In this document: piece by piece, positions 9,122-54,800 of the stretch | Numbering within the stretch: position 1 is the stretch's first letter | Layout: every line of letters starts with the position of its first letter | Origin: Candidatus Omnitrophota bacterium | GTDB lineage: Bacteria; Omnitrophota; Gorgyraeia; Gygaellales; Profunditerraquicolaceae | Direction: 5' to 3' | Assembly: GCA_011620275.1 (NCBI GenBank) | Contig: WOZK01000011.1 | Span: 1 to 54,800 of the forward strand | Length of the DNA: 54,800 nucleotides | Position numbers and translations under genes: made by a program | Notes under the pieces: model-generated | Databases searched by the model: none | What the model was told of the DNA's origin: nothing | The model's input: only the letters and a program-made list of their open reading frames with translations

Positions 9122-9220
9122 CGACCCGCCGGCGGAAAGCCGCGGAAATCAAGAAACCGTAATATTTAAAATGACCGTAACAGGCAGACGGCGGCGTTTT
9201 TACCTAAGCCGGCCAAAATA

Positions 9221-38540: not shown

Positions 38541-39032
38541 GGAACTGGTCGTCAGGCGCGAGCTGTCGGATAATTATTGTTTTTATAATCCTGCATACGA
38601 TAAATTCAGCGGTCTTCTTGCCTGGGCCGTGGAGTCGCTGCTCCGTTACCGCGCGGATACCAGGGAATATATTTATTCTTTCAAAAAGCTGGAAAACGCC
38701 CTGACACACGATCCATATTGGAACGCCGCCCAGCTTGGGCTCTTGCATTCGGGCCGTATGCATGGATATATGCGGATGTATTTGGGAAAGAAGATACTGG
38801 AGTGGACGAGAGAGCCGGAGCAGGTCTTCGAATACGCTGTAAGGCTTAAGACAAATATGAACTGGACGGAAGAGATCCCAACAGGTATGCCGGCGTTGCC
38901 TGGTGTTTCGGGGCGCATGACCGGCCCTGGCCGGAACGGCGGGTCTTCGGCAAGGTGCGCTACATGAACGCCGCCGGCCTGGAGCGCAAATTCGACATGC
39001 CGGGATATCTCAGGCGCGCATCGGGTACGTGA
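38539..39032 (+). pseudogene. Remnant of class II CPD photolyase (3' part, frameshifted)
   Basis: From 38539 the frame reads EELVVRRELSDNYCFYNPAY, then THDPYWNAAQLGLLHSGRMHGYMRMY, then KILEW, all typical of the C-terminal half of class II DNA photolyases. After RL near 38850 the homology moves to another frame: [39 protein letters not shown], ending at TGA 39030-39032. One base is missing at the junction. The whole N-terminal two-thirds is absent; the remnant begins exactly where the GNAT gene ends. It is therefore a decayed gene, not a functional photolyase. Confidence 0.82.
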
Positions 39033-39042
39033 GGAGGACGCC

Positions 39043-39864
39043 ATCAAGAACAATTCTTATCTGGGCGAACTGGAAGATAGGAGTATTTATATAATACGAG
39101 AGGCCTATCAGGAATACCGGGACCGACTGGCCCTGTTGTGGAGCATGGGGAAGGATTCCACAGCGATGCTGCATTTGGCCAGAAAGGCTTTCTTCGGGGA
39201 TGTTCCTATGCCTGTTGTTCACATAGACACCGGCCGTAAATTCGAGGAGATATATTCATTCCGCGCGAAACTAAGCAAGGCTTGGCGTCTTGACCTTGTT
39301 GTAGCCAGGAATGAGCAGGCCCTGGTCGAAGGGATGTCGCCGGAGAAAGGGAGATTTAAATGCTGCAGCGCGTTGAAGACGCAGGCGCTGCGGGATCTCG
39401 TATCCCGGCAGGGATACAGGGCGCTGCTGGTGGCTATACGCAGGGATGAGCATTCTATACGCGCAAAAGAACGTTATTTTTCACCGCGCGGCCGCGATTT
39501 CAAATGGGACTATCACAGCCGGGCATTGGAGTTATGGGCTGAATACCATGATGACGGCTGTTCCTCTGCCGCCGATACTCACGCGAGGGTCCACCCGATG
39601 CTTCATTGGAGGGAAAGGGATATCTGGGAATACGTTAAAAGAGAGCGCCTTCCGGTGGTCCCCTTGTATTTTTCTTCCCGCGGCAGGCGTTACCGCAGTA
39701 TAGGATGCGAATGCTGTTGTTCTCCTGTGCCTTCCAGAGCGGGCAGTATAAACGGGATAATCGCGGAACTTGCTTCCACGGACGTGGAAGAACGCTCCGG
39801 GCGCGCGAACGATAAAGAGGACGAATACACGATGCAGAAACTGCGCTCGCTGGGATATATGTGA
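39043..39864 (+). CDS. cysD: CysD-like sulfate adenylyltransferase subunit 2, cysteine-rich, probable AUC start
   Basis: An N-type ATP pyrophosphatase of the CysD family, about 273 residues. The PP-loop is SMGKDS (34-39). HIDTGRKFEE, RRDEHSIRAKER and a C-terminal GRANDKEDEYTM-LGYM tail follow CysD. GAGGAGG (39031-39037) precedes an ATC codon by five bases, and translation from there gives IKNNSYLGELEDRSIYIIRE, the expected CysD N-terminus; no ATG, GTG or TTG fits. Unlike E. coli CysD it has C107-C108 and C222-x-C224-C225-C226, a CC/CxxC pattern known from [4Fe-4S] APS reductases. It is paired with the CysN-like gene. Confidence 0.8.
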   Translation: MKNNSYLGELEDRSIYIIREAYQEYRDRLALLWSMGKDSTAMLHLARKAFFGDVPMPVVHIDTGRKFEEIYSFRAKLSKAWRLDLVVARNEQALVEGMSPEKGRFKCCSALKTQALRDLVSRQGYRALLVAIRRDEHSIRAKERYFSPRGRDFKWDYHSRALELWAEYHDDGCSSAADTHARVHPMLHWRERDIWEYVKRERLPVVPLYFSSRGRRYRSIGCECCCSPVPSRAGSINGIIAELASTDVEERSGRANDKEDEYTMQKLRSLGYM

Positions 39865-39865
39865 T

Positions 39866-41098
39866 ATGGATAGGCCTTTGAATGTGGTTGCCGTCGGTGA
39901 CGTGGACAGCGGTAAATCCACTCTTATAGGCAGATTTTTGTATGAGACGGGCTCTTTGCGCGGGGAGAAGCGCAGGGAGAAGGATTTTTCCCGTTTGCTG
40001 GACAGCCTGGAAGAGGAGCGCCGCGATTATATGACCATAGAGACCACGCAGGCCTTTTGCCGGTCTCTCGGAAGGCAGGGATTCATGTTTATAGACGTCC
40101 CGGGGCATCTGGAATTGATTTCGAACATGATCTCCGGGACCTCTTATGCGGATGCCGCCGTGCTGGTTGTTGACGCCGGCAGACCGGCTGCAGGCCAGGC
40201 CCGCGAGCATCTTTCGGTTCTCAGGTTCCTTGGTATCGTGAATACGGTCATTGCGGTCAACAAAATGGACGGTGTGGATTTTTCCCGGAACAAATACGAG
40301 GAGATCAAGGCGGAAACCGGCGTTTCCCTGGCCGGCGCGGGACTGCAGTGCCGATGGGTTGTTCCGGTATCGGCATTGCACGGTGACAACCTGCTGATAA
40401 ACTCCGCGCGTATGCCTTGGTATGAAGGCCCTTCATTGTCGTCCGCTCTGGATTCCTGCCGGTCTCATGCCGGTAACGGGAGTTTCCGTTTTTGCGTCCA
40501 GGATCTATATGATGTGCGCGGTGAAACGGTCGCAACCGGCAGGGTGGTCTCCGGGAGAATAACCCTGGGAGAGCGGGCGGCGGTTTTACCTCAGGGGCGC
40601 GCCGTCCGCGTCAAAAAAATACTGGAAGGTTTTCATCGCAAGACATCCGCCGGACCGGGAAAGAATATAGGAGTTGTCCTGGATGACATGCGGGATATAC
40701 GCCGGGGGCATTGTATATGTAAAAAACCGTATCCGCAGGCAAGCCGCAGCTTTCGCTCCAGACTTCTTTTTACCGGATGCGCGGACCGCAGAGGTGAATA
40801 TCCCCTGGATACCGGAGAAGATTTTCGCCTTTCGCAATTGAACAGAGGGCTCAGATTGTGTTGTCTGACGCAGTATACATCGGCCGGCATAACGGAGTTC
40901 AGGAGAGATGAGGGCGGGGCTTTCGGTAAATGCCCCGACTGGGAAATGATCGCCGATGCCGTTATACTTACAGCCGATCCTGTTGTGCTGGAAACAAGCG
41001 ATGCCTGCGGCAACGGTCTGGCCAGGTTCGTTTTGAAGGATGAAAACGGCAGTGTCGCCGCGATCGGGTATATCCCCTCGGGAGATAAATTATGCTGA
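39866..41098 (+). CDS. cysN: CysN-like translational-type GTPase (sulfate adenylyltransferase subunit 1)
   Basis: A 410-residue EF-Tu-type GTPase resembling CysN, which drives sulfate adenylation by CysD. The P-loop is GDVDSGKS (11-18), G3 is DVPGH (77-81) and G4 is NKMD (132-135). The switch I region is divergent: MTIETTQAF in place of the usual GITIDVAYRYF. Two beta-barrel domains follow. ATG 39866 lies two bases after the cysD stop. No APS kinase domain or cysC is present. The partner gene makes the CysN assignment likely, but the true substrate may differ. Confidence 0.78.
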   Translation: MDRPLNVVAVGDVDSGKSTLIGRFLYETGSLRGEKRREKDFSRLLDSLEEERRDYMTIETTQAFCRSLGRQGFMFIDVPGHLELISNMISGTSYADAAVLVVDAGRPAAGQAREHLSVLRFLGIVNTVIAVNKMDGVDFSRNKYEEIKAETGVSLAGAGLQCRWVVPVSALHGDNLLINSARMPWYEGPSLSSALDSCRSHAGNGSFRFCVQDLYDVRGETVATGRVVSGRITLGERAAVLPQGRAVRVKKILEGFHRKTSAGPGKNIGVVLDDMRDIRRGHCICKKPYPQASRSFRSRLLFTGCADRRGEYPLDTGEDFRLSQLNRGLRLCCLTQYTSAGITEFRRDEGGAFGKCPDWEMIADAVILTADPVVLETSDACGNGLARFVLKDENGSVAAIGYIPSGDKLC

Positions 41099-43170
41099 AC
41101 TATTATGTGGACCCCGGCCAGGGTTTTATTTTCTCGCAAAACCTCTCTTTTTTATGGGGAATACTGTTGGGAATGGGCGCCGGACTGGCGGCTTTTTTCA
41201 GGTTTTTTGTCAGGTCCCCGCGGGAAAAGTTCTTTGGGGCGGCTGTTATCGTATTGTTATTTATCCTGGGAGGGGTATCCATGCGGCACAATAAAAATAT
41301 ACGTCACAAGAAGGTAGTAGTGATCGGGGTTGACGCCCTTGATCCGGCACTGTTGGAGGAATTCATCGCAGGTAATATGTTGCCGAATTTAGCCCGGCTT
41401 GCGGCAGAAGGCGCTTATTCGCGTTTGGAAACCACTGTGCCTTCCGAGTCTGTGGTCGCCTGGACCAGTTTCTCCACCGGTTTGCGCCCGGGCGGGCACG
41501 GAATATTCGATTTCGTCATGCGGAGAGAGGGCGCGCGCGGCCACGGGCTTTATTTGAGTCTGAACGAGGTGCAAAACAAGTCGGGCAGGCCGGCCGTTTC
41601 CCGCTGCAATAAAGGGCGTTTCTTCTGGGAAGTGCTTTCCGACCGCCGTATTTACAACGAAGTCTATTTTTGTCCCAACACGTTCCCTCCGGGGCGCCTT
41701 CACGGCCGTATTATATCGGGGATGGGGGTCCCTGATATTACCGGCACTAACGGCAGGTCGTTTTTCTATACCTCCGAAAGGCCGAAAGTAGAAACGGGAG
41801 ACGACCGCTGCCGGGTCGTAAACGTGGATATCGTTTTCGGAAAAGCCGCCGCATGGATATACGGGCCTTTGCTTTCTTCAGCCGGTAACGAACGTCCGGA
41901 GAACGCGCGCATACCCATGACAATAGAGATAGATGCCGCGAAGCAGACCGCTGTCCTGCGTTTTCAGGGAAAGACTGTAATTTTGCGCAAAGGTGAATGG
42001 AGCTCTTGGCAAAAGGTGTCGTTCTCTCTGGGCGGATTGAGAAAGGGAAAAGGTATAATACGGTTTTACCTTAAATCCGTCGCTCCGTCTCTGGGGCTTT
42101 ACGCGACCCCGGTCAATTTCGACCCAGCCGCGCCGCTTTTTCCCATTTCTTACCCGGCGGATTTCTCCCGCGAACTCGCCGCTGCAAGCGGCATGTTTTA
42201 TACGCAGGGTATGCCGGCCGATACCTGGGCCTTGAGCGAAGGGAAACTGGAAGAAAGCGAATTTCTTTCGATGATAGACAGGATTTTCGCGGAACGCAGA
42301 AATATCCTGGAAAACAGGCTGAGGCGTTTCCGGGAGGGTATGTTCTTTTTTTATCTGGATACCCTGGATAGTGTCCAGCATATGTTCTGGCGCTACAGGG
42401 ACGGCAGGGCGTTTCCTTCCGGTACGCTCTCCGGCCGCAAAGACGTCATCCTGGAGTATTACCGCAAGATAGACGAGCTTCTGGGAGAGGTAATGAGGCA
42501 TTCTGACGAGGATACGGTAATAATGGTGCTTTCCGACCACGGCTTCACTTCGTTCCGCAAGGCGGTCGATCTCAACCGCTGGCTGTCCGACAACGGATAT
42601 CTCTATTTTAAAGACGGAATAAGAGATGGCGGAGAATTTTTTTCCGGCATAGACTGGTCGCGCTCCAGGGCCTATGCGATGGGTTTCGGCGGTATCTACC
42701 TGAATAAAACCGGACGGGAATATTACGGTATTGTCCGGCCTGAAGACTGTCGTGCTTTGGTAAAAGAGATATCGCGAAAACTGCGGGGTCTTAAGGACCC
42801 TGCCTCCGGAGAAGCGGTGGTAAGCAATGTCTATGAGGGGAACGAAGTCTTCAGCGGCCCTTGCCGCCCCGCATCCCCTGATTTATACGCGGGGTTTGCC
42901 GCCGGTTACCGCGGCTCCTGGCAGACGGCGTTAGGAGGGGTTTCCGGGGAGGTCATCAGGGAAAACGATAAAAAGTGGAGCGGTGATCATATTGTAGATC
43001 CGGCAATAGTCCCGGGTGTTCTTCTGGTGAATAAGAAAGTCCGTCTGGAAGCGCCATCCATAATAGATATCGCCCCCACTGTTCTTGGTTTGTTGGGCGT
43101 AGATATTCCCGCCGAGATGCCGGGAAAAGTTTTGTTCAAGGGGAGTAATATTTTAGATGCGAGTCCGTAA
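41092..43170 (+). CDS. Membrane-anchored alkaline-phosphatase-superfamily phosphodiesterase
   Basis: A 692-residue protein. Two N-terminal membrane helices (about 18-40 and 47-64) are followed by a type I phosphodiesterase/nucleotide pyrophosphatase domain. Metal ligands and nucleophile are visible as GVDALDP (79-85), the Thr in VAWTSFSTGL (T125), LDTLDSVQHMFWRY and LSDHGFTSF. The catalytic domain should lie on one side of the inner membrane, probably outside. Its ATG overlaps the cysN stop by seven bases, so the two are translationally linked, which hints at a shared pathway with an adenylylated or sulfated substrate. Confidence 0.82.
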   Translation: MLNYYVDPGQGFIFSQNLSFLWGILLGMGAGLAAFFRFFVRSPREKFFGAAVIVLLFILGGVSMRHNKNIRHKKVVVIGVDALDPALLEEFIAGNMLPNLARLAAEGAYSRLETTVPSESVVAWTSFSTGLRPGGHGIFDFVMRREGARGHGLYLSLNEVQNKSGRPAVSRCNKGRFFWEVLSDRRIYNEVYFCPNTFPPGRLHGRIISGMGVPDITGTNGRSFFYTSERPKVETGDDRCRVVNVDIVFGKAAAWIYGPLLSSAGNERPENARIPMTIEIDAAKQTAVLRFQGKTVILRKGEWSSWQKVSFSLGGLRKGKGIIRFYLKSVAPSLGLYATPVNFDPAAPLFPISYPADFSRELAAASGMFYTQGMPADTWALSEGKLEESEFLSMIDRIFAERRNILENRLRRFREGMFFFYLDTLDSVQHMFWRYRDGRAFPSGTLSGRKDVILEYYRKIDELLGEVMRHSDEDTVIMVLSDHGFTSFRKAVDLNRWLSDNGYLYFKDGIRDGGEFFSGIDWSRSRAYAMGFGGIYLNKTGREYYGIVRPEDCRALVKEISRKLRGLKDPASGEAVVSNVYEGNEVFSGPCRPASPDLYAGFAAGYRGSWQTALGGVSGEVIRENDKKWSGDHIVDPAIVPGVLLVNKKVRLEAPSIIDIAPTVLGLLGVDIPAEMPGKVLFKGSNILDASP

Positions 43171-43673
43171 AGCGGAATACCGAAATTCGTTCTCAAACTC
43201 TCTGTTTCTCGTCTCGCGGACAGCTATAGACAGCTGCATATCGGTTATCATACCTTTTTTTATCATGCCAGCGCCGGATAATTTGCCAGAATTATCATTC
43301 TGTCGTCGGTGAAAATATTCTTTTTATTTCTCAGCTCAGAAATGGGCTGTTCCGCAACAGTCCTATAAGAGTTGACATGCGCCACGCAATGCCTTATTAT
43401 GAATTTAGTCAAACCGTAGAAATCCCCGGTTTTCCGGACGTTTTTATTTATTAACAATGCTTTGTCAAAAAAACGGCTCAATTTAATGGTTTTATCTTCG
43501 AGAAGATGCGTTGAACCAACATGAAATCAAAGATAATCAACGCATTGGAATACGCGTAACGTTTCTAATGACAATATGTTGCAATAAGATGGCCTTTGAA
43601 AAGTAAGCACAAAGAAAATAAATTTTAACAAAGTAATGCAAAAGTATTGCAAAAAAAGTATTACAAAATCGCC
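43171..43673. other. Intergenic region at the composition boundary
   Basis: About 500 bases with no convincing gene. Base composition changes here from GC-rich to AT-rich and stays AT-rich to about 51.5 kb. A perfect nine-base inverted repeat, ATGCGTTGA (43506-43514) and TCAACGCAT (43537-43545), encloses 22 bases, with TACGCGTA about eight bases further on. A 72-codon open frame on the minus strand (43263-43481) has no recognised features. The region could be a junction of acquired DNA. Confidence 0.5.
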
Positions 43674-43724
43674 TTGACAAAACCAAGCGTGAATGGTATA
43701 TTCATATTTATGAATATCTATTCA
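43674..43724 (+). promoter_or_regulatory. Promoter and palindromic operator of the TetR-RND operon
   Basis: TTGACA (43674-43679), a 17-base spacer and TATATT (43697-43702) form a near-consensus promoter. Over the -10 box lies a palindrome: ATATTCAT (43698-43705), four bases, ATGAATAT (43710-43717). It extends outward to TGAAT (43690-43694) and ATTCA (43720-43724). The layout is that of a TetR-type operator that blocks RNA polymerase, so autorepression of the operon is likely. Confidence 0.8.
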
Positions 43725-43824
43725 AAGAATGACACTATGTTCAAGATAGGATTTGTTTATAAGTTCCTTGATTATATCCTCTGAGGACATCATGCTAAAA
43801 ATGTATTTAAACGAGAGATAAATA

Positions 43825-44445
43825 ATGTCTGTCATAGAAAGAAAAAAAAGGGATTGGTTATTGCGTCAAGGGGATATCCTCAAGGCGGCTGAACGTGTTT
43901 TTGCCACAAAAGGGTATCACAAGGCAACAATTCAAGATGTTGCCAAGGAAGCCCAGTATGCCGTGGGGACAATCTATCTATACTTTAACCACAAGGAAGC
44001 GTTGTATTTGGACCTGATAGAAAGAAAAATAGCAGATTTAATATATGAAGTAAAAAGAGAAGTAAATAAGACAGGGGATGCAAAAGAAAAAATCAGGGTT
44101 TTAGTCCATCAGCAATTAACCTATTTTGAAGAGAATCATGATTTCTTCAGGATTTATTTTTCAGAAAGAGGGGGGGTGCGTTGGGCGATAAAGGATAAGG
44201 TCTCGAAGAGCGTGCGGGATAAATTTGTGAAATACCTTGATTACATTACTGAATTGCTCAAAGATGCCCAAGAGAAGCTTTTGATCAGGAAGGACTTAGA
44301 GGCAAAAAGATTGGCTTATGTGTTAACTTCGATGTTAAGCGCGACTATCATTCCCTGGCTTAAAGGAATGTGCCACAAAGAAAAGATAACTGATATGACA
44401 GATTTTATCCTTGATATTTTCTTAAAAGGGGTAGAGCAAAAATGA
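43825..44445 (+). CDS. TetR/AcrR family repressor of the efflux operon
   Basis: A 206-residue regulator. The N-terminal helix-turn-helix reads ATIQDVAKEAQYAVGTIYLYFNHKEALYLD (about residues 32-61), the standard TetR form. The C-terminal ligand domain is variable, as usual. It is the first gene downstream of the palindromic promoter and overlaps the TolC-like gene by four bases, so it is cotranscribed with the pump it probably represses. The leader is about 115 bases; the ribosome site is weak (GAGAGATAAATA). Confidence 0.9.
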   Translation: MSVIERKKRDWLLRQGDILKAAERVFATKGYHKATIQDVAKEAQYAVGTIYLYFNHKEALYLDLIERKIADLIYEVKREVNKTGDAKEKIRVLVHQQLTYFEENHDFFRIYFSERGGVRWAIKDKVSKSVRDKFVKYLDYITELLKDAQEKLLIRKDLEAKRLAYVLTSMLSATIIPWLKGMCHKEKITDMTDFILDIFLKGVEQK

Positions 44446-45992
44446 GGAAGCTTTTATACGTCTTACTTATAATTATTCTTATTTTTGAACCTCCACTTCC
44501 GGTATTTGCCTTAGATAAAAAAGCCACTGATGAGGAAAGGGCAAGAGAAGTAGAAAAAGCTATTTTTATGGCCGCCGGAGCGCAGGATAGAGTTTTGAAA
44601 ATAGGCTTGGTTGACTGCATTGCCTACGCCTTAAAGAATAACTCTGAAATTCTGATCAAGCGCATCGAACCAAAATTAAAAGAAAACGATGTGAAGATTG
44701 CTAAAGCCGATTTTGAGCCAACGTTTAGCGCCGATTATACATTGCAAGCTGATACCGAACAGTCCGTCAGCACGCTATATCCGGGAACTTCTAAAAGCAG
44801 AGATGTGGATTTTAACGCCGGGGTATCCGGTAAACTAATCACAGGAACAGAATATAGCATTGATTTTCTTAATGAAAGATATAAGAGTAGTATAGCTACG
44901 CAGAGCCCGAATCCTTATTATGCGACCGAGCCCAAGATTACAATAACCCAGCCGCTTTTTAAGGATTTTGGCATCTTGGTAAATAAAGCGGATATCATAG
45001 TTGCCCAGAATAATAGATTACAATCCGACGCGTCTTTTAAAGATACGGTTATGGATACTATCAGTAAGGCAAAAACAGCTTATTATAATTATATTTTTTA
45101 TCTGGAAAATTACGCCATTGCTAACCTTTCTTGGAAACGCGCCCAGCATTTACTGGAGATAAATAAAGCCCGCTACGAGAAGGGGTTTTTAAGTTCCGTA
45201 GATTTATTGGAGACAGAAGCCGCCACGGCGCAGAGAGAGAAGGCAGTACTTACCGCCGAAGCTCAGGTTAAGAAAGCCGAGGATGACCTTAAACTCATTA
45301 CCAATTTAGTGGATGACCCTGAAGCCTGGAATGCCAAGATTGAATTGATAGACAAACCGGAATTTAAGGTTGAAGAGGTGGATTTATTACAAAGCTTGAA
45401 AAGCGCCTTTGAATACAGGCCGGATTACTACTCCGCTAAAATAGACTTGAAAAACCGGGATATCAAAATCGCGACTGCCAAGAACGCTTTGTTTCCTACT
45501 GTTGATCTGATAGGCAGTTTCGGCTTAAACGGATTAGGAAGAGACTATCAGGATGCCATCAATAAAGTTAACTCCGACTATACTGACTGGAGCGTAGGAG
45601 TTAAATTCAGCCTTCCCTGGGGCGGTGGAGAGCGGGCAAAATATGACCAGAAGAAATTAGAAAAAGCCCAGGCCTTGCTCTCATTCGGAAGATTAGAGCA
45701 GAATATTATTCTGGAAATAAGGGATAAGGTCAGATTAGTTAAAACACAGAAACAGCAGGTTGATGTAGCTAATCTTTCCAAGGAGAAAGAAAACCAGAAT
45801 TACGAAGCGCAGAAAGAGCGTTACGCCGCAGGGCAAGTCTCTACTCATGATATGCTGGATTATCAGGATAAATTAGCGCAGGCTGAGCTTGATTACGTTA
45901 AGGCGCTGATAGATTACAATGTCGCGCTCATTGATTTAGATAAGTCCCGGGGCTTAACCTTAGTTAAAAATGATATAAAGCTGGAGGATTAA
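44442..45992 (+). CDS. TolC-like outer membrane efflux protein
   Basis: A 516-residue outer-membrane factor. It has a signal peptide (residues 1-23, ending PVFA) and two repeats of the OEP helical barrel region, with many Ala/Gln-rich helices (LWAQARAEL-type YEKGFLSSVDLLETEAATAQREKA and YAAGQVSTHDMLDYQDKLAQAELDY). It should form the trimeric exit duct of the RND pump encoded downstream. No lipobox is seen. Confidence 0.88.
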   Translation: MRKLLYVLLIIILIFEPPLPVFALDKKATDEERAREVEKAIFMAAGAQDRVLKIGLVDCIAYALKNNSEILIKRIEPKLKENDVKIAKADFEPTFSADYTLQADTEQSVSTLYPGTSKSRDVDFNAGVSGKLITGTEYSIDFLNERYKSSIATQSPNPYYATEPKITITQPLFKDFGILVNKADIIVAQNNRLQSDASFKDTVMDTISKAKTAYYNYIFYLENYAIANLSWKRAQHLLEINKARYEKGFLSSVDLLETEAATAQREKAVLTAEAQVKKAEDDLKLITNLVDDPEAWNAKIELIDKPEFKVEEVDLLQSLKSAFEYRPDYYSAKIDLKNRDIKIATAKNALFPTVDLIGSFGLNGLGRDYQDAINKVNSDYTDWSVGVKFSLPWGGGERAKYDQKKLEKAQALLSFGRLEQNIILEIRDKVRLVKTQKQQVDVANLSKEKENQNYEAQKERYAAGQVSTHDMLDYQDKLAQAELDYVKALIDYNVALIDLDKSRGLTLVKNDIKLED

Positions 45993-45996
45993 ATAA

Positions 45997-46926
45997 ATGA
46001 CAATTAAATTTAAACGACTTTTACCTTTTTGTATGATTTCAACGCTGACTCTTTCTTTATTCATCGCCGGTTGCGGCACGGGGACGAAAGAAAAAGAAAA
46101 GCAAGAAGCTACCCCTGTGCGGGTGATGAAGGTGGAATCCCAGACCATACAAAATACCCTGGACTATGTCGGTGATATCAAAGCCCAGGATGAGGCATTG
46201 GTTTATCCCAAGGTAAGCGGCAAAATTATTGAGAAACTCAAAGAAGAAGGCGATGCGGTAAAAAAAGGGGACGTGATTGCCTATATTGACCGGGATGAGG
46301 TTGGATTTAAGTTTGAAAAAGCCCCTGTGGAAAGCCCCTTAACCGGCTTTATCGGCAGGATCAATGTAGATATCGGGACTCAGGTTACGCCCCAGAGCCC
46401 TATAGGTTTGGTGGTGAATATGGACAGTGTCCATATAGATTTGAATATTCCGGAAAATTATTTGCCTAAAATTTTAGTTGGGCAAACTGCGCAGGTTAGC
46501 GTGCAGGCATACCCAGATAAAAAATTTACCGGAACGGTTTCCAGAATAAGCCCGGTTTTGGACTTAGAAACCCGCACTGCGCCCATAGAAATAGTTATCC
46601 CCAACCCGGAGCATCTATTAAACTCTGGTATGTTTGCTCAAGTAGAATTAATAATTGCCGAACGCAAAAACGTGCCGGTAATCGTTAAAGAAGCAGTTAT
46701 GGGCAAGGAGCCCGGAGTTTATATTTATGCCGTTAATGGGAATACTGCGCATCAGAAAAATATCAAGCTGGGAATACGCCAGGGCGCTTATTATGAAGTA
46801 TTGGAAGGCGTAAAAGAAGGAGATCTGGTGGTGGTGATGGGGCAGCAGCAATTGTATGAAGGCGCTCCCGTTAACATCGAGCCGGAGAAAAACGCCGGTA
46901 AGATAGAATCCGAAGGAGGTAAATAG
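45997..46926 (+). CDS. RND efflux periplasmic adaptor, lipoprotein, without helical hairpin
   Basis: A 309-residue membrane-fusion protein. The signal peptide ends in the lipobox LFIAGC. The first half of the lipoyl domain (YPKVSGKIIEKLKEEGDAVKKGDVIAYID) is followed after only about 12 residues by the second half (VESPLTGFIGRINVD). The long alpha-helical hairpin normally inserted there is missing. Beta-barrel and membrane-proximal domains follow. Adaptors without this hairpin are known (BesA of Borrelia), where the outer-membrane duct is thought to contact the pump differently. Confidence 0.88.
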   Translation: MTIKFKRLLPFCMISTLTLSLFIAGCGTGTKEKEKQEATPVRVMKVESQTIQNTLDYVGDIKAQDEALVYPKVSGKIIEKLKEEGDAVKKGDVIAYIDRDEVGFKFEKAPVESPLTGFIGRINVDIGTQVTPQSPIGLVVNMDSVHIDLNIPENYLPKILVGQTAQVSVQAYPDKKFTGTVSRISPVLDLETRTAPIEIVIPNPEHLLNSGMFAQVELIIAERKNVPVIVKEAVMGKEPGVYIYAVNGNTAHQKNIKLGIRQGAYYEVLEGVKEGDLVVVMGQQQLYEGAPVNIEPEKNAGKIESEGGK

Positions 46927-46928
46927 CG

Positions 46929-49900
46929 ATGAACCTTCCAGAATTCGGCGTAAAAAGACCGGTTACGAATATAATGATTTTTTCGGCAATAATTATCCTG
47001 GCATTATACAGTTTAAGCCGGTTAGGAATAGATATGATGCCGGAAATCGAACCGCCGGCAATCAGCGTGATTACCACTTATGAGGGCGCCAGCCCGGAAG
47101 ACGTGGAAATAAAAATAAGCGAACCCTTAGAAAACCAATTAGCCACTACTCCGGGGATAGAGAAGATTACCTCTCGTTCCTTAGAAGGCCTTTCTGTAAT
47201 TACCTTAAAGTTTATCTGGGGCACCAATCTTGATGAGGCTTCCAATGATATCCGCGACCGCATAGAGATCTCTAAACGTTACTTGCCCGACATTCCCGAC
47301 GAGATAGAGAATCCTTTTATTTTTAAGTTTAATACCTCGATGATGCCCATAATTTTTGTAGGAATAACCGCCGAACAGAGTTATCCCGAGCTTTTTGATA
47401 TGATTGATAACAGAGTAGGAGATCCCCTAAGGCAGATCCCCGGAGTAGGCACAGTCCAGCTGCATGGCGGATTGGAACGCCAGATTAATATCTGGATAGA
47501 CAGGCACAGGCTTGAAGGATACGGTTTTTCCATCCTTGATATTAAAAATGTTTTAGCCAAGGAGAATGTTACTCAGCCGGCCGGAAGTATAAAATCAGGT
47601 TTTACGGATTATCTTTTACGCGTTCCCGGAGAATTTGCCGCGCCTGATGAAATAAACTCGGTTATCTTAGGGAAACGCAACGGTAACCTTGTTTATTTAA
47701 AGGATGTTGCCCGGGTAGAAGATAGTTTTAAAGAAGTAACCAATATTGTGCGCATTAACCGCAAGCAAGGCGTTTTGATGATGATCCAGAAACAAACCGG
47801 CACCAATACCGTGGAAGTGGCAGGACGCGTGAAGAAGAAGTTAGATGAGTTACAGAAAATCCTTCCTCAAGATGTAAAAATGCATTTAGTCATGGATACA
47901 TCCCGCGACATTATAAATTCCCTCAATACGCTTAAATCCACAGTCTGGGTAGGAGGGGTTCTGGTTATTCTGGTGGTTTGGTTTTTCTTGAGACAATTTT
48001 TACCCAGCCTGATCATCGCCCTGACAATTCCCTTTTCACTCCTTATTGCCTTTATTTATCTTTTCTTAAGCGGCAAGACCATAAATACAATTAGCCTTTC
48101 CTCTTTGACTATAGCTATTGGCATGGTGGTAGATAATGCCATTGTGGTAGTGGACAATGTATATCGGCATCTTGACAAAGGGGAGCGCTCGCAGGAGGCA
48201 GCTATTTTTGGAACCTCTGAAATGTTTCTCTCGATTGCCGCATCTACCCTTACTACGGTTGTGGTATTTTTGCCCATGCTTTTTATTAGCGGAGTGGTAG
48301 GTATAATGTTTGGTGAATTAGCCATAATCGTAACCGTTACCCTTTTAGGCTCGCTTTTTACCGCCGCGACATTCAGCCCAATGCTTTGTGCCAGGTGGAT
48401 GAGAGTTAATAATGGCCAGGCCAAAAGCAAAAATAAGTGGTTTAGCAAATTTTATCAGATTTCCGAACATTGGTTTAAATCCTGGGAAGAATTCTATGGT
48501 AAAGCGTTAGCCTGGTGCCTGGGGCATAAAAGAATAGTTATCTTTGGTTTTCTGGGAGCGTTTGTTTTCAGCTTATTCTTAATCCGATTTGTCGGGAATG
48601 AATTTATACCTGAACAGGACTCCGGCGATTTACGCACCACCATAAATCTTCCCATAGGCACGCGCGTGGAAGAAACCGATAAAATTGCTTCTCAAGTAGA
48701 AAATATTTTCAAAGAAGAAGTTCCCGAAGAGAAATTTGTTTATGTAAGAAGCGGACAGAGTGGAGGCATGGGGGCGGTAATGGGAGGGGAATCCGGAAGC
48801 CATATTACTTCCGGGGGCGCCAAGCTTGTGCCAAAGACCGAAAGAAAACGTTCGATTAAAGAAATCGGCCAAGTCATCAGAAGAAGAATTAAACAGATCC
48901 CCGGTGTATTAAAAACAGATATTTCTACGGGTAATCCCATGGGCAGAATAGTTAGCGGTACAGGAGGCAAACAGGTACAGGTAGAGATTATCGGGCATTC
49001 TCTTGAGGATACCGATGCTTTAGCCAATAAAATAAAGGAGATTGTGGAGAAAACCGAGGGCGCGATAGACGCGAGTATTTCCCGTGAATTAAACCGGCCG
49101 GAATTAAGAATAGAAGTAAATAGGGTAAAGGCATCCGCTCTCGGGCTTGATATGCGCACGATTGCCGATAGCATCAAGGCCTTTGTGGAGGGCGAAACTG
49201 CCACTAAATACCGCGAGAAAGGAGAAACCTACGATATATACGTGCGCCTGGAAGAACGCTTCCGCGCCAAACCGGAGGACGTGGAAAACCTTTCTTTAGT
49301 TTCTCCTTTTACCGGCAAACAGATTAAATTAAGCACCGTTGCCAAGGTGTATGAAATAACCGGCCCTCTGGAAATTGAGCGCAAAAACCGCGAAAGAGTG
49401 GTCAGGGTAGAATGTAACACTTACAAACGGTCAATGGGAAAGGTTATCGAGGATATCCAGAAAGAAATCCAAAAAATAACTATCCCTTCCGATATAATCA
49501 TAAGTTTCGGCGGCGAGGCAGAGGAGCAAGGCAAGGCATTTAAGGATTTGACATTTCTTCTTATGCTCGGTATTTGCCTTGTCTATATGGTTATGGCTGC
49601 CCAGTTTGAATCATTGCTTGATCCTTTGATCGTCATGTTTGCCGTACCTTTCACCTTTACCGGAGTAATCCTGGGATTTATATTAACCGGCACAACCTTA
49701 AGCATAATAACTTTCTTAGGGTTAGTTATGCTTATGGGAATTGTGGTTAATAACGCTATAGTTTTGGTAAGCTATATAAATATCCTTCGTGCCCGCGGGT
49801 TGTCGATGTTGGAAGCAGTGACAATCGGAGGCAAAGAGAGATTGAGGCCTGTGCTTATGACGACAATCACCACTATCGCGGGATTATTGCCTTTGGCTCT

Positions 49901-50054
49901 TTCAACAGGCGAAGGTTCGGAGGTATGGCAGCCATTAGGAATTACCATGCTTGGAGGCCTCAGTTTGTCAACTTTGATTACTATGCTTTTTGTGCCTACT
50001 CTTTACGCGGTATTTGAGGCAACGATCAAAAAGAACGGAGGCAAGAAGAAATGA
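46929..50054 (+). CDS. RND multidrug efflux permease (HAE1/AcrB family)
   Basis: A 1041-residue inner-membrane proton-driven pump. Two halves, each with about six membrane helices and a large periplasmic loop. Family markers are YEGASPEDVEIKISEPLE, LDEASNDIRDRI, and the proton-relay aspartates in GMVVDNAIVVVDNVYRH on TM4. Later conserved segments are FVPTLYAVFE and GIVVNNAIVLVSYI. Full length. The substrate cannot be stated; a drug, fatty acid or lipid is possible. Confidence 0.95.
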   Translation: MNLPEFGVKRPVTNIMIFSAIIILALYSLSRLGIDMMPEIEPPAISVITTYEGASPEDVEIKISEPLENQLATTPGIEKITSRSLEGLSVITLKFIWGTNLDEASNDIRDRIEISKRYLPDIPDEIENPFIFKFNTSMMPIIFVGITAEQSYPELFDMIDNRVGDPLRQIPGVGTVQLHGGLERQINIWIDRHRLEGYGFSILDIKNVLAKENVTQPAGSIKSGFTDYLLRVPGEFAAPDEINSVILGKRNGNLVYLKDVARVEDSFKEVTNIVRINRKQGVLMMIQKQTGTNTVEVAGRVKKKLDELQKILPQDVKMHLVMDTSRDIINSLNTLKSTVWVGGVLVILVVWFFLRQFLPSLIIALTIPFSLLIAFIYLFLSGKTINTISLSSLTIAIGMVVDNAIVVVDNVYRHLDKGERSQEAAIFGTSEMFLSIAASTLTTVVVFLPMLFISGVVGIMFGELAIIVTVTLLGSLFTAATFSPMLCARWMRVNNGQAKSKNKWFSKFYQISEHWFKSWEEFYGKALAWCLGHKRIVIFGFLGAFVFSLFLIRFVGNEFIPEQDSGDLRTTINLPIGTRVEETDKIASQVENIFKEEVPEEKFVYVRSGQSGGMGAVMGGESGSHITSGGAKLVPKTERKRSIKEIGQVIRRRIKQIPGVLKTDISTGNPMGRIVSGTGGKQVQVEIIGHSLEDTDALANKIKEIVEKTEGAIDASISRELNRPELRIEVNRVKASALGLDMRTIADSIKAFVEGETATKYREKGETYDIYVRLEERFRAKPEDVENLSLVSPFTGKQIKLSTVAKVYEITGPLEIERKNRERVVRVECNTYKRSMGKVIEDIQKEIQKITIPSDIIISFGGEAEEQGKAFKDLTFLLMLGICLVYMVMAAQFESLLDPLIVMFAVPFTFTGVILGFILTGTTLSIITFLGLVMLMGIVVNNAIVLVSYINILRARGLSMLEAVTIGGKERLRPVLMTTITTIAGLLPLALSTGEGSEVWQPLGITMLGGLSLSTLITMLFVPTLYAVFEATIKKNGGKKK

Positions 50055-50341
50055 TGATGGTAATGATTGCTTATAATGAAGCGATTGATGATGAAGTAAT
50101 GGAAGTTTTAGAGGGTTGTGCTCTTAAAAATTACACCAAAATAAAAGGAGCTTTCGGCAGGGGTGCAACCAGCGGCACGCATTTGGGTGACGACATCTGG
50201 CCCGGCAGGAACAATATTTTATATGCCGCCTGTCAGGATAATGAAGCGAAACAGCTTGTTTCCTGTGTTAAAGAAATGCGCAAAAAATTAGGCAGGGAAG
50301 GCATTAAAGCGTTTGTCTGGAGTTTGCATGAAATAACATAA
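50051..50341 (+). CDS. PG0541-like transporter-associated PII-type protein
   Basis: A 96-residue protein of the small ferredoxin-fold/PII-like family named after PG0541, found at the end of RND operons. It shows YNEAIDDEVMEVLEGCALKNYTK, GAFGRGATSGTHLGDDIWPGRNNILYAACQD and a C-terminal helix. The ATG overlaps the pump stop as ATGA. A regulatory contact with the pump is inferred from the constant linkage. Confidence 0.82.
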   Translation: MMMVMIAYNEAIDDEVMEVLEGCALKNYTKIKGAFGRGATSGTHLGDDIWPGRNNILYAACQDNEAKQLVSCVKEMRKKLGREGIKAFVWSLHEIT

Positions 50342-50426
50342 GAGAAGAATGGCATTCGCTTTTTTGGTTTGGCATAGATATAGGCTATGATTATTTTATC
50401 GTTAAAGAGAAAATACGGATGGCTTA

Positions 50427-50897
50427 ATGGTTTTTAAACGCGAAAAGATAATTACAGTAAAAGAAGAAAATCCGCACGCCTTGATTATCGAAGGTTATAT
50501 CAAAGACGATTTTCATCATATCACCTGTGTATTGGTAGTGAATTATCCTTCTTTTGAAATCATGGATGCAAAGATAGGATTTCTTACCGCTCCGATGCAA
50601 ACCTGCCAGGAAGCCGCTAAAGCTATCAATAATCTAAAAGGATTAAAGATAAAGCCAGGTTTTTTGGTAAAAATAAGAAAGGCAGTTGGCGGCTCGCAGG
50701 GATGCATCCATCTTTCGGAATTACTTTATGATATGGGGCAGGCAGCCTTTCAGTCCAATAGAAAAATCAGACACAGGACAATTTCAGATAAAGAGATTAA
50801 TGAGAAATCCCGAGAATTTATGCGAGGCAAATGCATTGCTTTTAAAGAAGTTACAATGGAAGATCCAGTACGTCCATTAGCAGTTTATGATAAGTAG
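50427..50897 (+). CDS. DUF2889 domain protein
   Basis: A 156-residue protein matching the DUF2889 pattern: an N-terminal strand region, IIEGYIKDDFHHITCVLVV, a central KIGFLTAPMQTCQEAAKAIN, then GLKIKPGFLVKIRKAVGGSQGCIHLSELLYDMGQAAFQ with conserved Cys and His. The function of the family is unknown. It follows the PG0541-like gene by 85 bases and may belong to the efflux operon or stand alone. Confidence 0.75.
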   Translation: MVFKREKIITVKEENPHALIIEGYIKDDFHHITCVLVVNYPSFEIMDAKIGFLTAPMQTCQEAAKAINNLKGLKIKPGFLVKIRKAVGGSQGCIHLSELLYDMGQAAFQSNRKIRHRTISDKEINEKSREFMRGKCIAFKEVTMEDPVRPLAVYDK

Positions 50898-50983
50898 GCA
50901 AGGTAGATGAAGAACAAATTGTTGAGATTAATTTGCCTTTGGATGAATCGACAATAACGGATTTGGAAAAGAAAATTCGTTAA
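50894..50983 (+). other. Short open-frame remnant of unknown origin
   Basis: In one frame, bases 50894-50983 read VGKVDEEQIVEINLPLDEST and then ITDLEKKIR before TAA. The wording looks protein-like, but no start codon or ribosome site is present. It may be the tail of a lost gene. No family can be named. Confidence 0.2.
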
Positions 50984-51129
50984 ACGGAAGCATATATGGG
51001 CGATTTTAAAAAAGGAACCGGTTCTTTGTGATAAGGATAGCAAAGTTATCAAAGCCTATTCCTATGGGCAGCGAAGAGCAGCAAAGGTATGAAAGAGTTC
51101 CGGGGATATTATTTGAAGCGGATAAATGG

Positions 51130-51420
51130 ATGAGAAAATTTATACGGAAGGCCGAATTCTATGTGTATATGGTGCGATGCAATGATGGAAGCTTTTATAC
51201 AGGTAGTACAAATAACTTAGAAAAAAGAATTAAAGAGCACAACAGTAATTCCGGCCGCGCCGCCAAGTATTTACAAGGTAAGGGGCCGGTAAAATTAGTC
51301 TATGCTAAGGAATACGCGTATTATAAGAACGCCCTGCACGCAGAGATAGGTATTAAAAAATTAACCCGCAGACAAAAAGAAGAACTGATAAACATCTATG
51401 ACAAGTCCAAAGGAGAATAA
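51130..51420 (+). CDS. GIY-YIG nuclease-domain protein (UPF0213-like)
   Basis: A single GIY-YIG domain of about 96 residues. The GIY equivalent is YVYMVRC, the YIG equivalent is FYTGSTNN, then LEKRIKEHN with the catalytic Arg, and a later Glu in LHAEIGIKKL. Such small proteins (YhbQ/UPF0213-like) are possible endonucleases of unknown role. In-frame starts at 51028 (GTG) and 51064 (ATG) would add an N-terminal stretch not typical of the family; the choice is uncertain since no start has a strong ribosome site. Confidence 0.75.
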   Translation: MRKFIRKAEFYVYMVRCNDGSFYTGSTNNLEKRIKEHNSNSGRAAKYLQGKGPVKLVYAKEYAYYKNALHAEIGIKKLTRRQKEELINIYDKSKGE

Positions 51421-51500
51421 TACCGATAAGGTGGCCGGATTATAGTAATGCGATGAGGAGCTTGGCGGAAGCGGTCGTTGGGGAATAAAAAGGCTTGATC

Positions 51501-52286
51501 ATGAAAAGATTCATTTCGATTGTCGGATTTTTGTTTATGAGCTCAGTTTCTTTTGCTCAGGAGATCGATAAAGCTCTTTTGCAGGGCTATGATGTGGCTC
51601 TGGTGATCCATAATCGGACAACCGGTGAGACGGTCAACATCGATCCGTCGCGCAGTAGCCAGCGCCTTTCGCCCTGTTCGACATTCAAGATCTATAATAC
51701 CCTTATCGGCCTTGAGCTTGGGCTCATCAAGGGGGCTGACGAGCCGTGGTATAAGTGGGATGAGGTGAAGCGTGATATAGAGGGGTGGAATCAGGATTTA
51801 ACGCTTCGAGAGGCATTTCGGGTGTCGGCCGTTCCTGCATATCAGATATTAGCGCGGGAAATAGGCGAAGTCCGGATGAAGCAATATATTGAAAAGATCG
51901 GCTATGGCTCACAGGATATTTCATCAGAGATCGATATTTTTTGGCTTCCGCGTCCGGATACTACATCCATCAAGATCAGCGCAGATGAACAGGTCGCTCT
52001 TTTAAATAGTCTTTTGGACGGCAAACTTCCGTTTTCCGAAAAGAATATCTCGATACTGCGCGATGTTATGCAGGTAGAGAAGACCGATAAAGGAACGCTT
52101 TACGGCAAGACCGGCTCCGGCACGGGGCCGGATGGGAAATGGAACTTGGGCTGGTTTGTAGGTTTTCTTGAACATAACGGTACGACCTACGTTTTCGCAT
52201 GTAATATTACCGGAGGCGATAATCCATCGGGCAAGACTGCCCGGACGATCATGGAGAGCATCTTTAAATCTCAAAACCTGTTGTAA
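51501..52286 (+). CDS. Class D beta-lactamase (OXA-like)
   Basis: A 261-residue exported serine beta-lactamase. It has a signal peptide (1-19, ending SVSFA). The catalytic STFK is at 60-63 (Ser60, Lys63), SAV at 109-111, and YGS at 135-137, where most OXA enzymes have YGN. FWLPRP (Trp148) and KTG (203-205) follow. These are the full set of class D landmarks. It would hydrolyse beta-lactams in the periplasm, but the spectrum cannot be predicted. Its composition is between that of the left and right parts. ATG 51501 is used; TTG 51495 is an alternative. No mobile-element gene is adjacent. Confidence 0.9.
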   Translation: MKRFISIVGFLFMSSVSFAQEIDKALLQGYDVALVIHNRTTGETVNIDPSRSSQRLSPCSTFKIYNTLIGLELGLIKGADEPWYKWDEVKRDIEGWNQDLTLREAFRVSAVPAYQILAREIGEVRMKQYIEKIGYGSQDISSEIDIFWLPRPDTTSIKISADEQVALLNSLLDGKLPFSEKNISILRDVMQVEKTDKGTLYGKTGSGTGPDGKWNLGWFVGFLEHNGTTYVFACNITGGDNPSGKTARTIMESIFKSQNLL

Positions 52287-52751
52287 TAACAACTCGTCCC
52301 TATGGTCGTCTTGAAAAGCGAGATCATGGGGATTTTTTATGTTTGGATGCAGTTCTGGGTCCTTGGAAGGGGGCTTGGGTGAGGGTCGGGCGAGGCGCAA
52401 GGAGCCAGTGATGCTTCGACGCAGGCCACGGCTTATCGCCGTGTCTTTTGCTCAGCACTTCGTAGTGGTCAAAAAAACTAAGTCCTGAGCGAACGAGCGA
52501 TCGGGTATCTTAAATGGCAATGCGCGAGTGAGTCGAAGGATCGATGTCCATCACTTTTGGGGTCTGGGCATAAGTGGTCAACCCGGCCAAAACAAGCGTC
52601 CAGCTTCGGAAAACAGGCGGTTTTAGGGGTATCCTGTGGGCGTTCGGGAGGGTCAAAAAAGGCCATTTTGATGGACATGGATGGACACGTAAATGTCCGC
52701 TAAAAAGTGGACATTTTGGGGTGTGAAATGGCACCGTAGCTTAAAAACAGC
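52287..52751. other. Noncoding, mobile-element-like stretch with inverted repeats
   Basis: No gene is supported in these 460 bases. There is an inverted repeat ATGTCCATCA (52544-52553) and TGATGGACAT (52669-52678). A stem AAATGTCC/GGACATTT (about 52691-52716) follows it closely, and a weak CCCTATG/CATGGGG hairpin with T6 lies after the beta-lactamase gene (52300-52338). The GC-rich, repeat-laden text differs from both neighbours and looks like an insertion-sequence or MITE remnant. Two overlapping minus-strand open frames of 66 and 74 codons have no recognisable product. Confidence 0.4.
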
Positions 52752-52790
52752 TTTACTTTGTGTCAGAAGTGCGATATATTATTTCTGACA
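52752..52790 (+). promoter_or_regulatory. Promoter with nested operator of the DUF6088-Fic operon
   Basis: TTTACT (52752-52757), a 17-base spacer and TATATT (52775-52780) form a promoter. An inverted repeat TGTCAGAA (52761-52768) and TTCTGACA (52783-52790) brackets the -10 box. AbiEi-type winged-helix antitoxins are known to bind similar repeats and repress their own operons, so autoregulation by the first gene is likely. Confidence 0.7.
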
Positions 52791-52806
52791 ATGAAAAGCG
52801 ATTAAT

Positions 52807-53406
52807 ATGACAGAATCCATTGAGAGTAAAATCCTTCGTCGAATTATCGGCAAGAAAAAGGGATGGGTGTTTGCCCCAAGCCATTTTTTTGATCTTGGCA
52901 ATCGTGCCGCTGTAGATCAAGCGTTGAGTCGTTTGGTTCGATCCGGAGATATCCGTAGATTAGCGCGCGGGCTTTATGATTATCCACGGAAGCATCCGGA
53001 TTTTGGAGAAATGCCGCCAAACGTTAATCGTGTTACTGCCGCGCTTGCCGAAAAAGACAATCTTAAGATTCAGCCTTCAGGAGCATATGCGGCTAACTTG
53101 CTGGGGTTGTCCGATCAAGTACCGGCAAAGATTGCTTTATTAACAGACGGCTCTACCCGGGTGGTTCAAGTTGGTAACTGGCACATTATGTTTAGGAAGA
53201 CATCACCAAAAAATATGGCGACTGCCGGGCGCGTGAGCGGCTTGGTTATTCAGGCTTTACGTTACATGAAACAAAGAAATATTGATGAGCGAGTCATTAA
53301 TTCGCTTAAAAGAAGATTATCGGCTGATGATAAAAAACAGCTTATCAACGATATTCGTTATGCCCCGGCTTGGATAGGTGAAATATTTAAACAGATCAAT
53401 TCGTAG
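52807..53406 (+). CDS. DUF6088 / AbiEi-like winged-helix antitoxin-type protein
   Basis: A 199-residue protein. The N-terminal winged-helix part contains FFDLGNRAAVDQALSRLVRSGDIRRLARGLYDYPR (about 29-62). A middle domain with IQPSGAYAANLLGLSDQVPAKI follows, and then a helical C-terminus. This matches DUF6088/AbiEi-like antitoxins, which normally precede an AbiEii-type nucleotidyltransferase toxin. Here that toxin is absent and a Fic gene follows 39 bases later. The palindrome before the gene is the probable autoregulatory site. Confidence 0.8.
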   Translation: MTESIESKILRRIIGKKKGWVFAPSHFFDLGNRAAVDQALSRLVRSGDIRRLARGLYDYPRKHPDFGEMPPNVNRVTAALAEKDNLKIQPSGAYAANLLGLSDQVPAKIALLTDGSTRVVQVGNWHIMFRKTSPKNMATAGRVSGLVIQALRYMKQRNIDERVINSLKRRLSADDKKQLINDIRYAPAWIGEIFKQINS

Positions 53407-53445
53407 CAGTTTCTTGGCTTTTAAGCCAGTAAGGACGGAGGTCAT

Positions 53446-54186
53446 ATGAAAGAGATTTTGAGTAAGGTTGATGAGGCTCAGGCAAAGATAAACGCATTGC
53501 GCCCCTTTAGTAATGAAATGAACCAACAGATAAAGGAATATTTTCGTATTGGGCTTACCTATTCAAGCAACGCGCTTGAGGGGAATTCTCTGACTATATC
53601 GGAGACAAAAGTGGTCATTGAGGATGGACTCACCATCGCCGGAAAGCCGCTTAGAGATCATTACGAAGCGACAGGGCACAGTGATGCGTTTGATCACATG
53701 TATGCGCTTGCTACCGGGAAAATCATAACGGAAGAAGATATCAAGAAGTTACACGCTCTTTTTTATCACCGCATCAAAGAAGAGGATGCCGGTGTGTATC
53801 GGAAGGTTCAGGCCATTATTACGGGCTCTCAATATCCTTTGCCTACACCAGACGCGCTCCCCGGGAGGATGCAGAAATTTATTAAAAATCTGCCCAGCTT
53901 AAAAAAGGATAATCATCCGGTTACTTATGCCGCCAAGCTTCATAAAGAATTTGTGTTTGTTCATCCATTTGTTGACGGTAATGGGCGAGTGGCCAGACTT
54001 TTAATGAATGTGGCCCTTATGCAGGCAGGATACATTATTGCAATAATCCCGCCGCTTAAACGGTCGGAATACATCAGCGCTCTTGAAAAAGCGCATAAAA
54101 GCGACATGGATTTTATTAAGCTGATAGCGTCATGCGTCTATGAGACCCAGAATGATCTACTGCGCATGGCTAATGGAAAGAGCTAA
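53446..54186 (+). CDS. Fic family protein (probable AMPylase)
   Basis: A 246-residue Fic protein. The active-site motif is HPFVDGNGR (173-181), which fits HPFx(D/E)GNGR with all catalytic residues. An N-terminal inhibitory helix motif is visible as SNALEG (41-46; S-x3-E-G), which marks a class II, self-inhibited Fic enzyme. The family usually transfers AMP from ATP to target proteins. Strong ribosome site GGACGGAGGTCAT. It follows the DUF6088 gene and is coupled to the next small gene. Confidence 0.88.
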   Translation: MKEILSKVDEAQAKINALRPFSNEMNQQIKEYFRIGLTYSSNALEGNSLTISETKVVIEDGLTIAGKPLRDHYEATGHSDAFDHMYALATGKIITEEDIKKLHALFYHRIKEEDAGVYRKVQAIITGSQYPLPTPDALPGRMQKFIKNLPSLKKDNHPVTYAAKLHKEFVFVHPFVDGNGRVARLLMNVALMQAGYIIAIIPPLKRSEYISALEKAHKSDMDFIKLIASCVYETQNDLLRMANGKS

Positions 54187-54187
54187 A

Positions 54188-54490
54188 ATGATTCTTGTTC
54201 TCGCTGGAAATAAAGGCGAATTCGAAAAGTTCTTGGAGAACCACGAGCCCAAGAACATTTTTCGGTTTATAAACGATGAAGCGGATTATGAAGGGTGTAA
54301 GGACTGCGATGTGGTACTTGCGGGATCTTACGAAGACAATCCACTGTGGAAAGACATGCATAATCGGGAAAGCTTAGAGAAATATTGTCGTTCGAACGAA
54401 ATTGACATAAATGATGCTTATTTGCGTAGACAATGCGCGATTACTGCGCGATTAGCGAAACCCGACATAAACGCGTCAAACCGGACCTAA
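54188..54490 (+). CDS. Small unknown protein coupled to fic
   Basis: A 100-residue acidic protein starting MILVLAGNKGEFEKFLENHE and containing CKDCD, VVLAGSYEDNPLWKDMHNRE and DAYLRRQCAIT. Its ATG lies one base after the fic stop, which suggests coupled translation. No family is recognised. It might be a partner or substrate of the Fic protein, but nothing beyond position supports this. Confidence 0.55.
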   Translation: MILVLAGNKGEFEKFLENHEPKNIFRFINDEADYEGCKDCDVVLAGSYEDNPLWKDMHNRESLEKYCRSNEIDINDAYLRRQCAITARLAKPDINASNRT

Positions 54491-54536
54491 ACAGGACAAA
54501 CGTACCAAAGGGGCGCTAATGGGGCGTTGATTAGAT

Positions 54537-54671
54537 ATGACTAAGAAATGCAAAAAGTGTAAGGTTCCGCTATACGGATTTTTGTATCGGCTAATCGCGA
54601 AGACGTTGTTTGGCGTGCGGCCGTCGGCCAAGGATCCAGATCTGTGCAATAAGTGCGAAGATAAGAAATAA
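54537..54671 (+). CDS. 44-residue zinc-ribbon-like microprotein
   Basis: The frame 54537-54671 encodes a small basic protein: CKKC (residues 5-8) near the start and CNKC (37-40) at the end, with VPLYGFLYRLIAKTLFGVRP between. Two CxxC pairs suggest a zinc ribbon or similar metal knuckle. The central part is hydrophobic. No strong ribosome site is visible; the function is unknown. Too short for most gene finders. Confidence 0.5.
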   Translation: MTKKCKKCKVPLYGFLYRLIAKTLFGVRPSAKDPDLCNKCEDKK

Positions 54672-54800
54672 ACGGCTTCAGGCGGTGCCGTCAGCAGGAC
54701 GTTGTGTCCACCGGGAAGAGGGAAGAGTGAGCGATTTAATACAAGAACAGGACTTTGTTAATTTTCGATTCGCTCCTTGAATCGTTGGGATTTTATTTTT

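Follow-up and report, generated by a model that had tools for sequence, protein, structure and literature searches.

A 54,800-nucleotide stretch of contig WOZK01000011.1 from a Candidatus Omnitrophota bacterium (the window; its genome is G000) carries three contiguous open reading frames that encode a CysD-like protein, a CysN-like GTPase and an alkaline phosphatase (AlkP)-superfamily protein, with Pfam matches to PF01507, PF00009 and PF01663, respectively. The cysN and AlkP genes overlap by 7 bp. The initial annotation of the window had described these three genes, the overlap and two cysteine pairs in CysD (C107-C108 and C222..C225), and all are present as it claimed. The features of the locus are as follows.

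39031-39037, + strand: Shine-Dalgarno-like GAGGAGG, separated by 5 nt from the ATC at 39043 and kept in the sister species G001
39043-39864, + strand: cysD-like gene (273 aa) with a probable ATC start, for the PP-loop catalytic subunit of an ATP sulfurylase in the CC/CxxC subfamily
39361-39366, + strand: C107-C108 in a CCxxLKT motif, conserved in 59/59 homologues and opposite the CC of APS reductase 2goy in the alignment
39706-39720, + strand: C222-x-x-C225-C226 in a YRSIGCxxCC motif (C222 and C225 in 59/59, C226 in 52/59), aligned with the CxxC of 2goy
39866-41098, + strand: cysN-like gene, 410 aa; GTPase subunit without an APS-kinase fusion
41092-43170, + strand: AlkP-superfamily gene (type I phosphodiesterase/NPP-like), 692 aa, with two N-terminal transmembrane (TM) helices and a catalytic domain predicted to be extracytoplasmic

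The start codon of cysD is probably the ATC at 39043, which stands behind a perfect GAGGAGG. An ATG, GTG or TTG start was not found at the homologous N-terminus of the window cysD, with none before 39136, and a start at 39136 would cost the protein its first helix. Homologous CysDs start at the position that matches the ATC, and the sister species keeps this codon. The sister species also has a GTG in frame 27 nt further upstream, a position at which the window's genome reads GCG. Comparison of the two species gives a ratio of nonsynonymous to synonymous substitution rates (dN/dS) of ~0.11-0.18 for cysD and the AlkP gene, which indicates purifying selection on both.

The window CysD matches PF01507 at 133 bits and passes the broad CysD subfamily model NF003587 (288.6 bits; cut-off 195), but it fails the stricter CysD models TIGR02039 (212 against 396.6) and NF009214 (219 against 413). 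In Foldseek, its AlphaFold model (pLDDT 84) is matched best by 1zun_A, the CysD chain of the GTP-dependent ATP sulfurylase CysDN of Pseudomonas syringae, and second best by 2goy_A, an assimilatory adenylyl sulfate (APS) reductase. Across the CysD homologues the PP-loop region SMGKDS is invariant, and the RRDEH..RAKER region is also conserved. The module resembles 1zun in the PP-loop CysD fold, the translation-factor-like CysN GTPase and the adjacency of the two genes. It differs in its CC/CxxC(C) cysteines, its divergent and never-fused CysN, its AlkP partner and its lack of assimilation genes.

In the alignment, the CC and CxxC of CysD fall on the [4Fe-4S] ligand positions of 2goy, as had been proposed, whereas 1zun_A has neither the CC pair nor the second cysteine of the CxxC. 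The E. coli CysD row in the alignment and tree is what we take to be that sequence, and the proper comparison is that with 1zun_A. C107, C108, C222 and C225 are each found in 59/59 homologues and C226 in 52/59, but conservation does not extend to all six cysteines that had been singled out, as C224 occurs in 14/59 and C173 in the window CysD alone. An iron-sulfur (Fe-S) or metal site in CysD is likely, given this alignment and the fold match to 2goy. The window CysD has no cysteine beyond C226 (C-terminus LRSLGYM), and with the C-terminal catalytic cysteine of APS reductase absent it shows no sign of a redox step. It also scores below the cut-off of every APS-reductase model (TIGR02055, 60.5 against 235; NF002537, 83 against 154). 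An identification of CysD as an APS reductase was rejected on these two grounds.

The cysteines had also been read as a sign of a new pathway with an iron-sulfur step, which was not borne out. CC and CxxCT are present in the CysDs encoded beside CysH (L039) or a fused CysNC (L040), and the CysD of Ilyobacter, encoded beside CysC and AprA, has CxxCT; the AlkP-linked CysD group mostly has CxxCC, and the CxxC is absent from the CysDs of Skermanella and Roseomonas with fused CysNC. Because the assimilatory-type CysDs of L039, L040 and Ilyobacter share the CC and/or CxxC, these residues are not the mark of a new module, and they were rejected as a sign of a redox pathway for the same reason. The putative Fe-S site is probably a general feature of the CC/CxxC CysD subfamily rather than a module marker.

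The CysN-like protein matches PF00009 at 116.7 bits and contains the GTPase motifs GDVDSGKST, the switch-I threonine, DVPGH and NKMD. It passes no curated NCBI model: it fails TIGR02034 (190 against 336), and the EF-1alpha model scores slightly higher, likewise under its cut-off. The unusual switch I noted at the outset is real (MTIETTQ), but (I/L)TIDTTQ is the norm of the group. No fusion of CysC to CysN was found among the homologous loci, where the longest CysN has 467 aa.

The window AlkP matches PF01663 at 121.8 bits (gathering cut-off 23). It has no PF00884 match, and an assignment as a sulfatase was rejected on that account. Its AlphaFold model (pLDDT 81) is matched in Foldseek by nucleotide pyrophosphatase/phosphodiesterases (NPPs) and phosphonoacetate hydrolase, which are its nearest solved relatives in sequence and fold and share its Pfam family and AlkP metal ligands. 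The module AlkPs differ from these enzymes in their mostly serine nucleophile position, their insertion domain and their genomic partner, CysDN. In the window's AlkP type (family A5), the metal ligands D81, D426, H430, D482, H483 and H633 are invariant and S120 at the nucleophile position is near-invariant.

Three subtypes of AlkP occur in the module: ~690 aa with two TM segments (the window type), ~425 aa and ~240 aa. All metal-ligand residues are conserved across them, and the nucleophile position holds threonine or serine in the 240-aa type and serine in the other two. The shortest archaeal form matches Pfam weakly (24.5 bits; cut-off 23), with its metal-ligand motifs intact. The 690-aa type, which the NPPs and phosphonoacetate hydrolase do not resemble in its N-terminal TM pair, has a positive loop between the two TM segments, and its catalytic domain is predicted to lie outside, a topology that rests on hydropathy and the positive-inside rule only. 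On the same basis the 425- and 240-aa types, found in many other phyla and devoid of TM segments and signals, are predicted to be cytosolic. The membrane-side action ascribed to the third gene would thus hold for the 690-aa type but not for the others.

When 84,980 species were scanned for homologues, 432 related stretches emerged; the best 80 were taken and are biased to query-like sequences. Genes at these loci were simple longest-open-reading-frame calls, and 76 of the 80 loci could be scored for neighbours. The 80 loci span Omnitrophota, Planctomycetota, Chloroflexota, Spirochaetota, Nitrospirota, Bipolaricaulota, WOR-3, Armatimonadota, Thermoplasmatota, Hadarchaeota and DPANN archaea. The three-gene order recurs in these homologues: CysN neighbours CysD in 69/76 loci, and an AlkP-superfamily gene lies at most 4 genes from cysD in 59/76. 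AlkP density is 47% at position +2 from cysD and 30% at +3, against a background of 1.5% per gene (3/198) at least 7 genes from cysD (binomial p ~2e-40, or ~2e-17 with the background raised threefold). Both gene orientations are seen, which argues that the adjacency is more than operon drift.

The association also holds across genomes. A CysD homologue is present in 18 of 98 related genomes, and the 690-aa AlkP profile matches 13/18 relatives with CysD and 1/80 without it (Fisher p ~2e-11). This AlkP is sometimes on a separate contig from cysD (G005, G088). The sole CysD-less relative with the 690-aa family, G096, has two copies and might show an independent use of the enzyme. The three subtypes pair with different parts of the CysD tree; AlkP subtype switches ~10 times on this tree, with well supported branches forcing only part of these changes. 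The functional link between CysDN and AlkP that had been suggested from one locus is therefore supported by adjacency across phyla and co-occurrence across genomes.

The module extends to a predicted virus. On the 80.5-kb viral IMG/VR contig L213, CysD, CysN and a PF01663 AlkP are encoded in a row (5941-9326), and a CxxCC CysD lies near an AlkP on L212. The protein encoded next on L213, after the AlkP, has 268 aa and contains the motif ILDACRDDTF. The viral CysDs of L207-L210 (CC/CxxCT) have no CysN seen nearby; two proteins precede them, a membrane protein of DUF2061 size (assigned to DUF2061 by Pfam in L207) and a 219-aa protein without a Pfam match, whose LLDACRYD motif resembles an AlkP metal site. 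In L091 (4815-5135) and four other cellular loci, a ~106-aa membrane-type protein directly follows cysD and resembles the viral DUF2061 neighbour, Pfam having been run on the viral one only.

In the window's genome (completeness 92.5%), no APS kinase (CysC), NIR_SIR sulfite reductase (SiR) or arylsulfate sulfotransferase (ASST) was detected. Nor was a PF13469 or PF00685 sulfotransferase, the families searched being PF13469, PF00685 and PF14269, with PF03567 and others not searched. CysD is its sole PF01507 gene, and no separate reductase for APS or 3'-phosphoadenylyl sulfate (PAPS) was detected. The closed chromosome G098 likewise has no CysC, SiR, PF13469/PF00685 sulfotransferase or ASST, and its two PF01507 genes are the CysDs of its two modules. 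Gaps in metagenome-assembled genomes were judged an unlikely reason for the missing genes, since this closed chromosome shows the same absence. The same consumers are absent from closed G120, save a marginal CysC-model match at 20.6 bits, and APS kinase, sulfotransferases and SiR were not found in closed G112, which has a second PF01507 gene.

These genomes bear on the possibility that the pair carries out plain sulfate activation for assimilation, the later genes being absent through incomplete genomes or replaced by other enzymes. The CysD passes the CysD subfamily cut-off and is related to the assimilatory CysDs of L039 and L040, and in some relatives SiR and another PF01507 gene are present. 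However, the closed chromosome G098 has neither CysC, SiR nor a PF01507 gene other than CysD; G031 (98% complete) and G005 (94%) have no SiR, second PF01507 gene or over-cut-off CysC; and the association with AlkP is not predicted by assimilation. We consider this explanation unlikely, in agreement with the initial annotation, which had argued against plain assimilation; the usual APS consumers were not found in the window's genome. Its statement that APS kinase, sulfite reductase and a sulfate transporter are missing stands for the two enzymes, but a permease of the TauE/SafE family, which we take to be DUF81, adjoins cysDN in 16/76 homologous loci, not including the window. The CysZ sulfate permease of C. 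glutamicum belongs to the former DUF81 family (PMC1266029).

It is less probable still that the CysDN-like pair adenylylates a substrate other than sulfate and that AlkP acts on the resulting AMP conjugate. The score of CysN under the TIGR02034 cut-off and the NPP and phosphonoacetate hydrolase relatives of AlkP would suit such a scheme, but the conserved PP-loop and RRDEH..RAKER region, the closest fold (an ATP sulfurylase CysD) and the permease neighbours, from the CysZ sulfate-permease family (PMC1266029), all point to sulfate.

Sulfate activation by CysDN outside assimilation has a precedent in PAPS-dependent sulfation (CysDNC with a sulfotransferase, as on a Skermanella plasmid), from which the module differs in that APS kinase and PAPS sulfotransferase were not found in the window's genome or closed G098. 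A further 43 genomes include 8 with a strong APS kinase, 5 with a PF13469 sulfotransferase and 8 with SiR, and the sulfotransferase tracks the kinase (5/8 genomes with CysC, 0/35 without). The pattern is the same in 16 Omnitrophota with a CxxCC CysD, where a sulfotransferase is found in 5/5 with CysC and 0/11 without. Nucleocidin sulfamylation was considered as a related system but rejected, because PAPS genes are used there and an AlkP is not reported.

ASST is a PAPS-independent sulfuryl transferase family, and a member is encoded between cysN and AlkP in L028/L086. An ASST-family gene also lies beside an AlkP fragment in G028 and accompanies AlkP in G031. The family is absent from the window's genome and most loci, and its fold is unrelated to AlkP. 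The ASST-family protein of L028 (11230-12861) has an N-terminal hydrophobic region, probably with several TM segments. Some module loci sit among O-antigen ligase, GT2 glycosyltransferase, carbamoyltransferase and sulfatase-type genes. These glycan genes and sulfatase-type neighbours, the ASST-family genes of G031 and G028 and the predicted position of the 690-aa AlkP domain outside the membrane are consistent with another arrangement, in which CysDN feeds PAPS- or APS-dependent sulfation through a kinase or sulfotransferase of unsearched families and AlkP edits phosphate or sulfate on the same surface glycan. Known sulfotransferases are confined to CysC-containing genomes among those tested, however, and the minimal cytosolic AlkPs encoded beside cysN would be badly placed for extracellular glycans. 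We regard this arrangement as possible but doubtful.

The conserved CysDN-AlkP link and the failure to find known APS consumers in the genomes discussed above lead us to favour, tentatively and at somewhat less than even confidence, a non-assimilatory sulfate-activation module that makes APS, probably for PAPS-independent sulfation, of which the window holds the Omnitrophota form. By family resemblance, CysDN would use ATP and GTP to yield APS, with the CysD cysteines presumably holding an Fe-S cluster. The APS would serve sulfation without PAPS, with surface glycans or glycolipids as the likeliest targets, and for the step of transfer or processing AlkP is the best candidate. Several of the solved relatives of AlkP cleave 5'-AMP esters, and by analogy APS may be regarded as a related 5'-AMP compound. 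The cytosolic AlkP types could act on APS directly, and the membrane-anchored window type would act outside on a sulfated carrier or acceptor produced within the cell. A more specific proposal, which we put forward only as a possibility, is that AlkP is an APS-dependent sulfuryl transferase or, where membrane-anchored, moves sulfate from an APS-derived carrier, in a PAPS-independent pathway of bacteria, archaea and viruses.

Removal of surplus APS by AlkP, as an APS hydrolase or nucleotide-recycling enzyme, would fit the NPP-like fold and the direct proximity to an APS-making enzyme. It is very improbable, because destroying the sole product would waste ATP and GTP, other APS consumers were not found in the window's genome or G098, and the 690-aa type is predicted to lie on the wrong side of the membrane.

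Several points weigh against a sulfation module. In 17/76 loci cysD has no AlkP nearby, although short contigs are common among these. A second PF01507 gene and an SiR-family gene occur in some relatives without CysC (e.g. G064, G070, G088, G092, G095 and G106), where CysDN could thus feed assimilation. The module of the window is not within a glycan cluster, and the predicted extracytoplasmic position of its AlkP domain makes direct use of cytosolic APS doubtful in this form. Only the linkage and the missing pathway are observed directly; we infer the chemistry of every step.

The flanks of the module differ between the window and the sister species. Upstream, the window contains a decayed class II photolyase gene (38541-39033) that has lost its N-terminal part and carries a frameshift near 38855; in the sister species a full-length photolyase gene (457 aa; L037 517-1887) lies directly upstream of cysD. 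Downstream (43170-54800), the G+C content of the window drops from ~54% to 40-46% just past the AlkP gene, at the start of a TetR/TolC/RND efflux block. In the sister species this place is taken by genes for a glycosyltransferase and a membrane protein, and the efflux block may therefore be inserted in the window's genome.

Neither a CysDN-AlkP module nor an AlkP-type sulfotransferase was found described in the open-licence literature, where absence is no proof of novelty. The module is widespread and apparently undescribed, and its novelty lies in the module rather than in the cysteines. The donor described for polysaccharide sulfotransferases is PAPS (PMC11625862). Biological sulfation of polysaccharides is held to run via PAPS; an APS-making cassette without APS kinase would add a second path to sulfated surface molecules or put APS to another use. 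Its conserved AlkP partner spans unrelated phyla and small-genome DPANN archaea. The module is also a warning not to label each CysDN as sulfate assimilation, which is likely to happen in metagenome surveys of groundwater, sediment and archaeal genomes.

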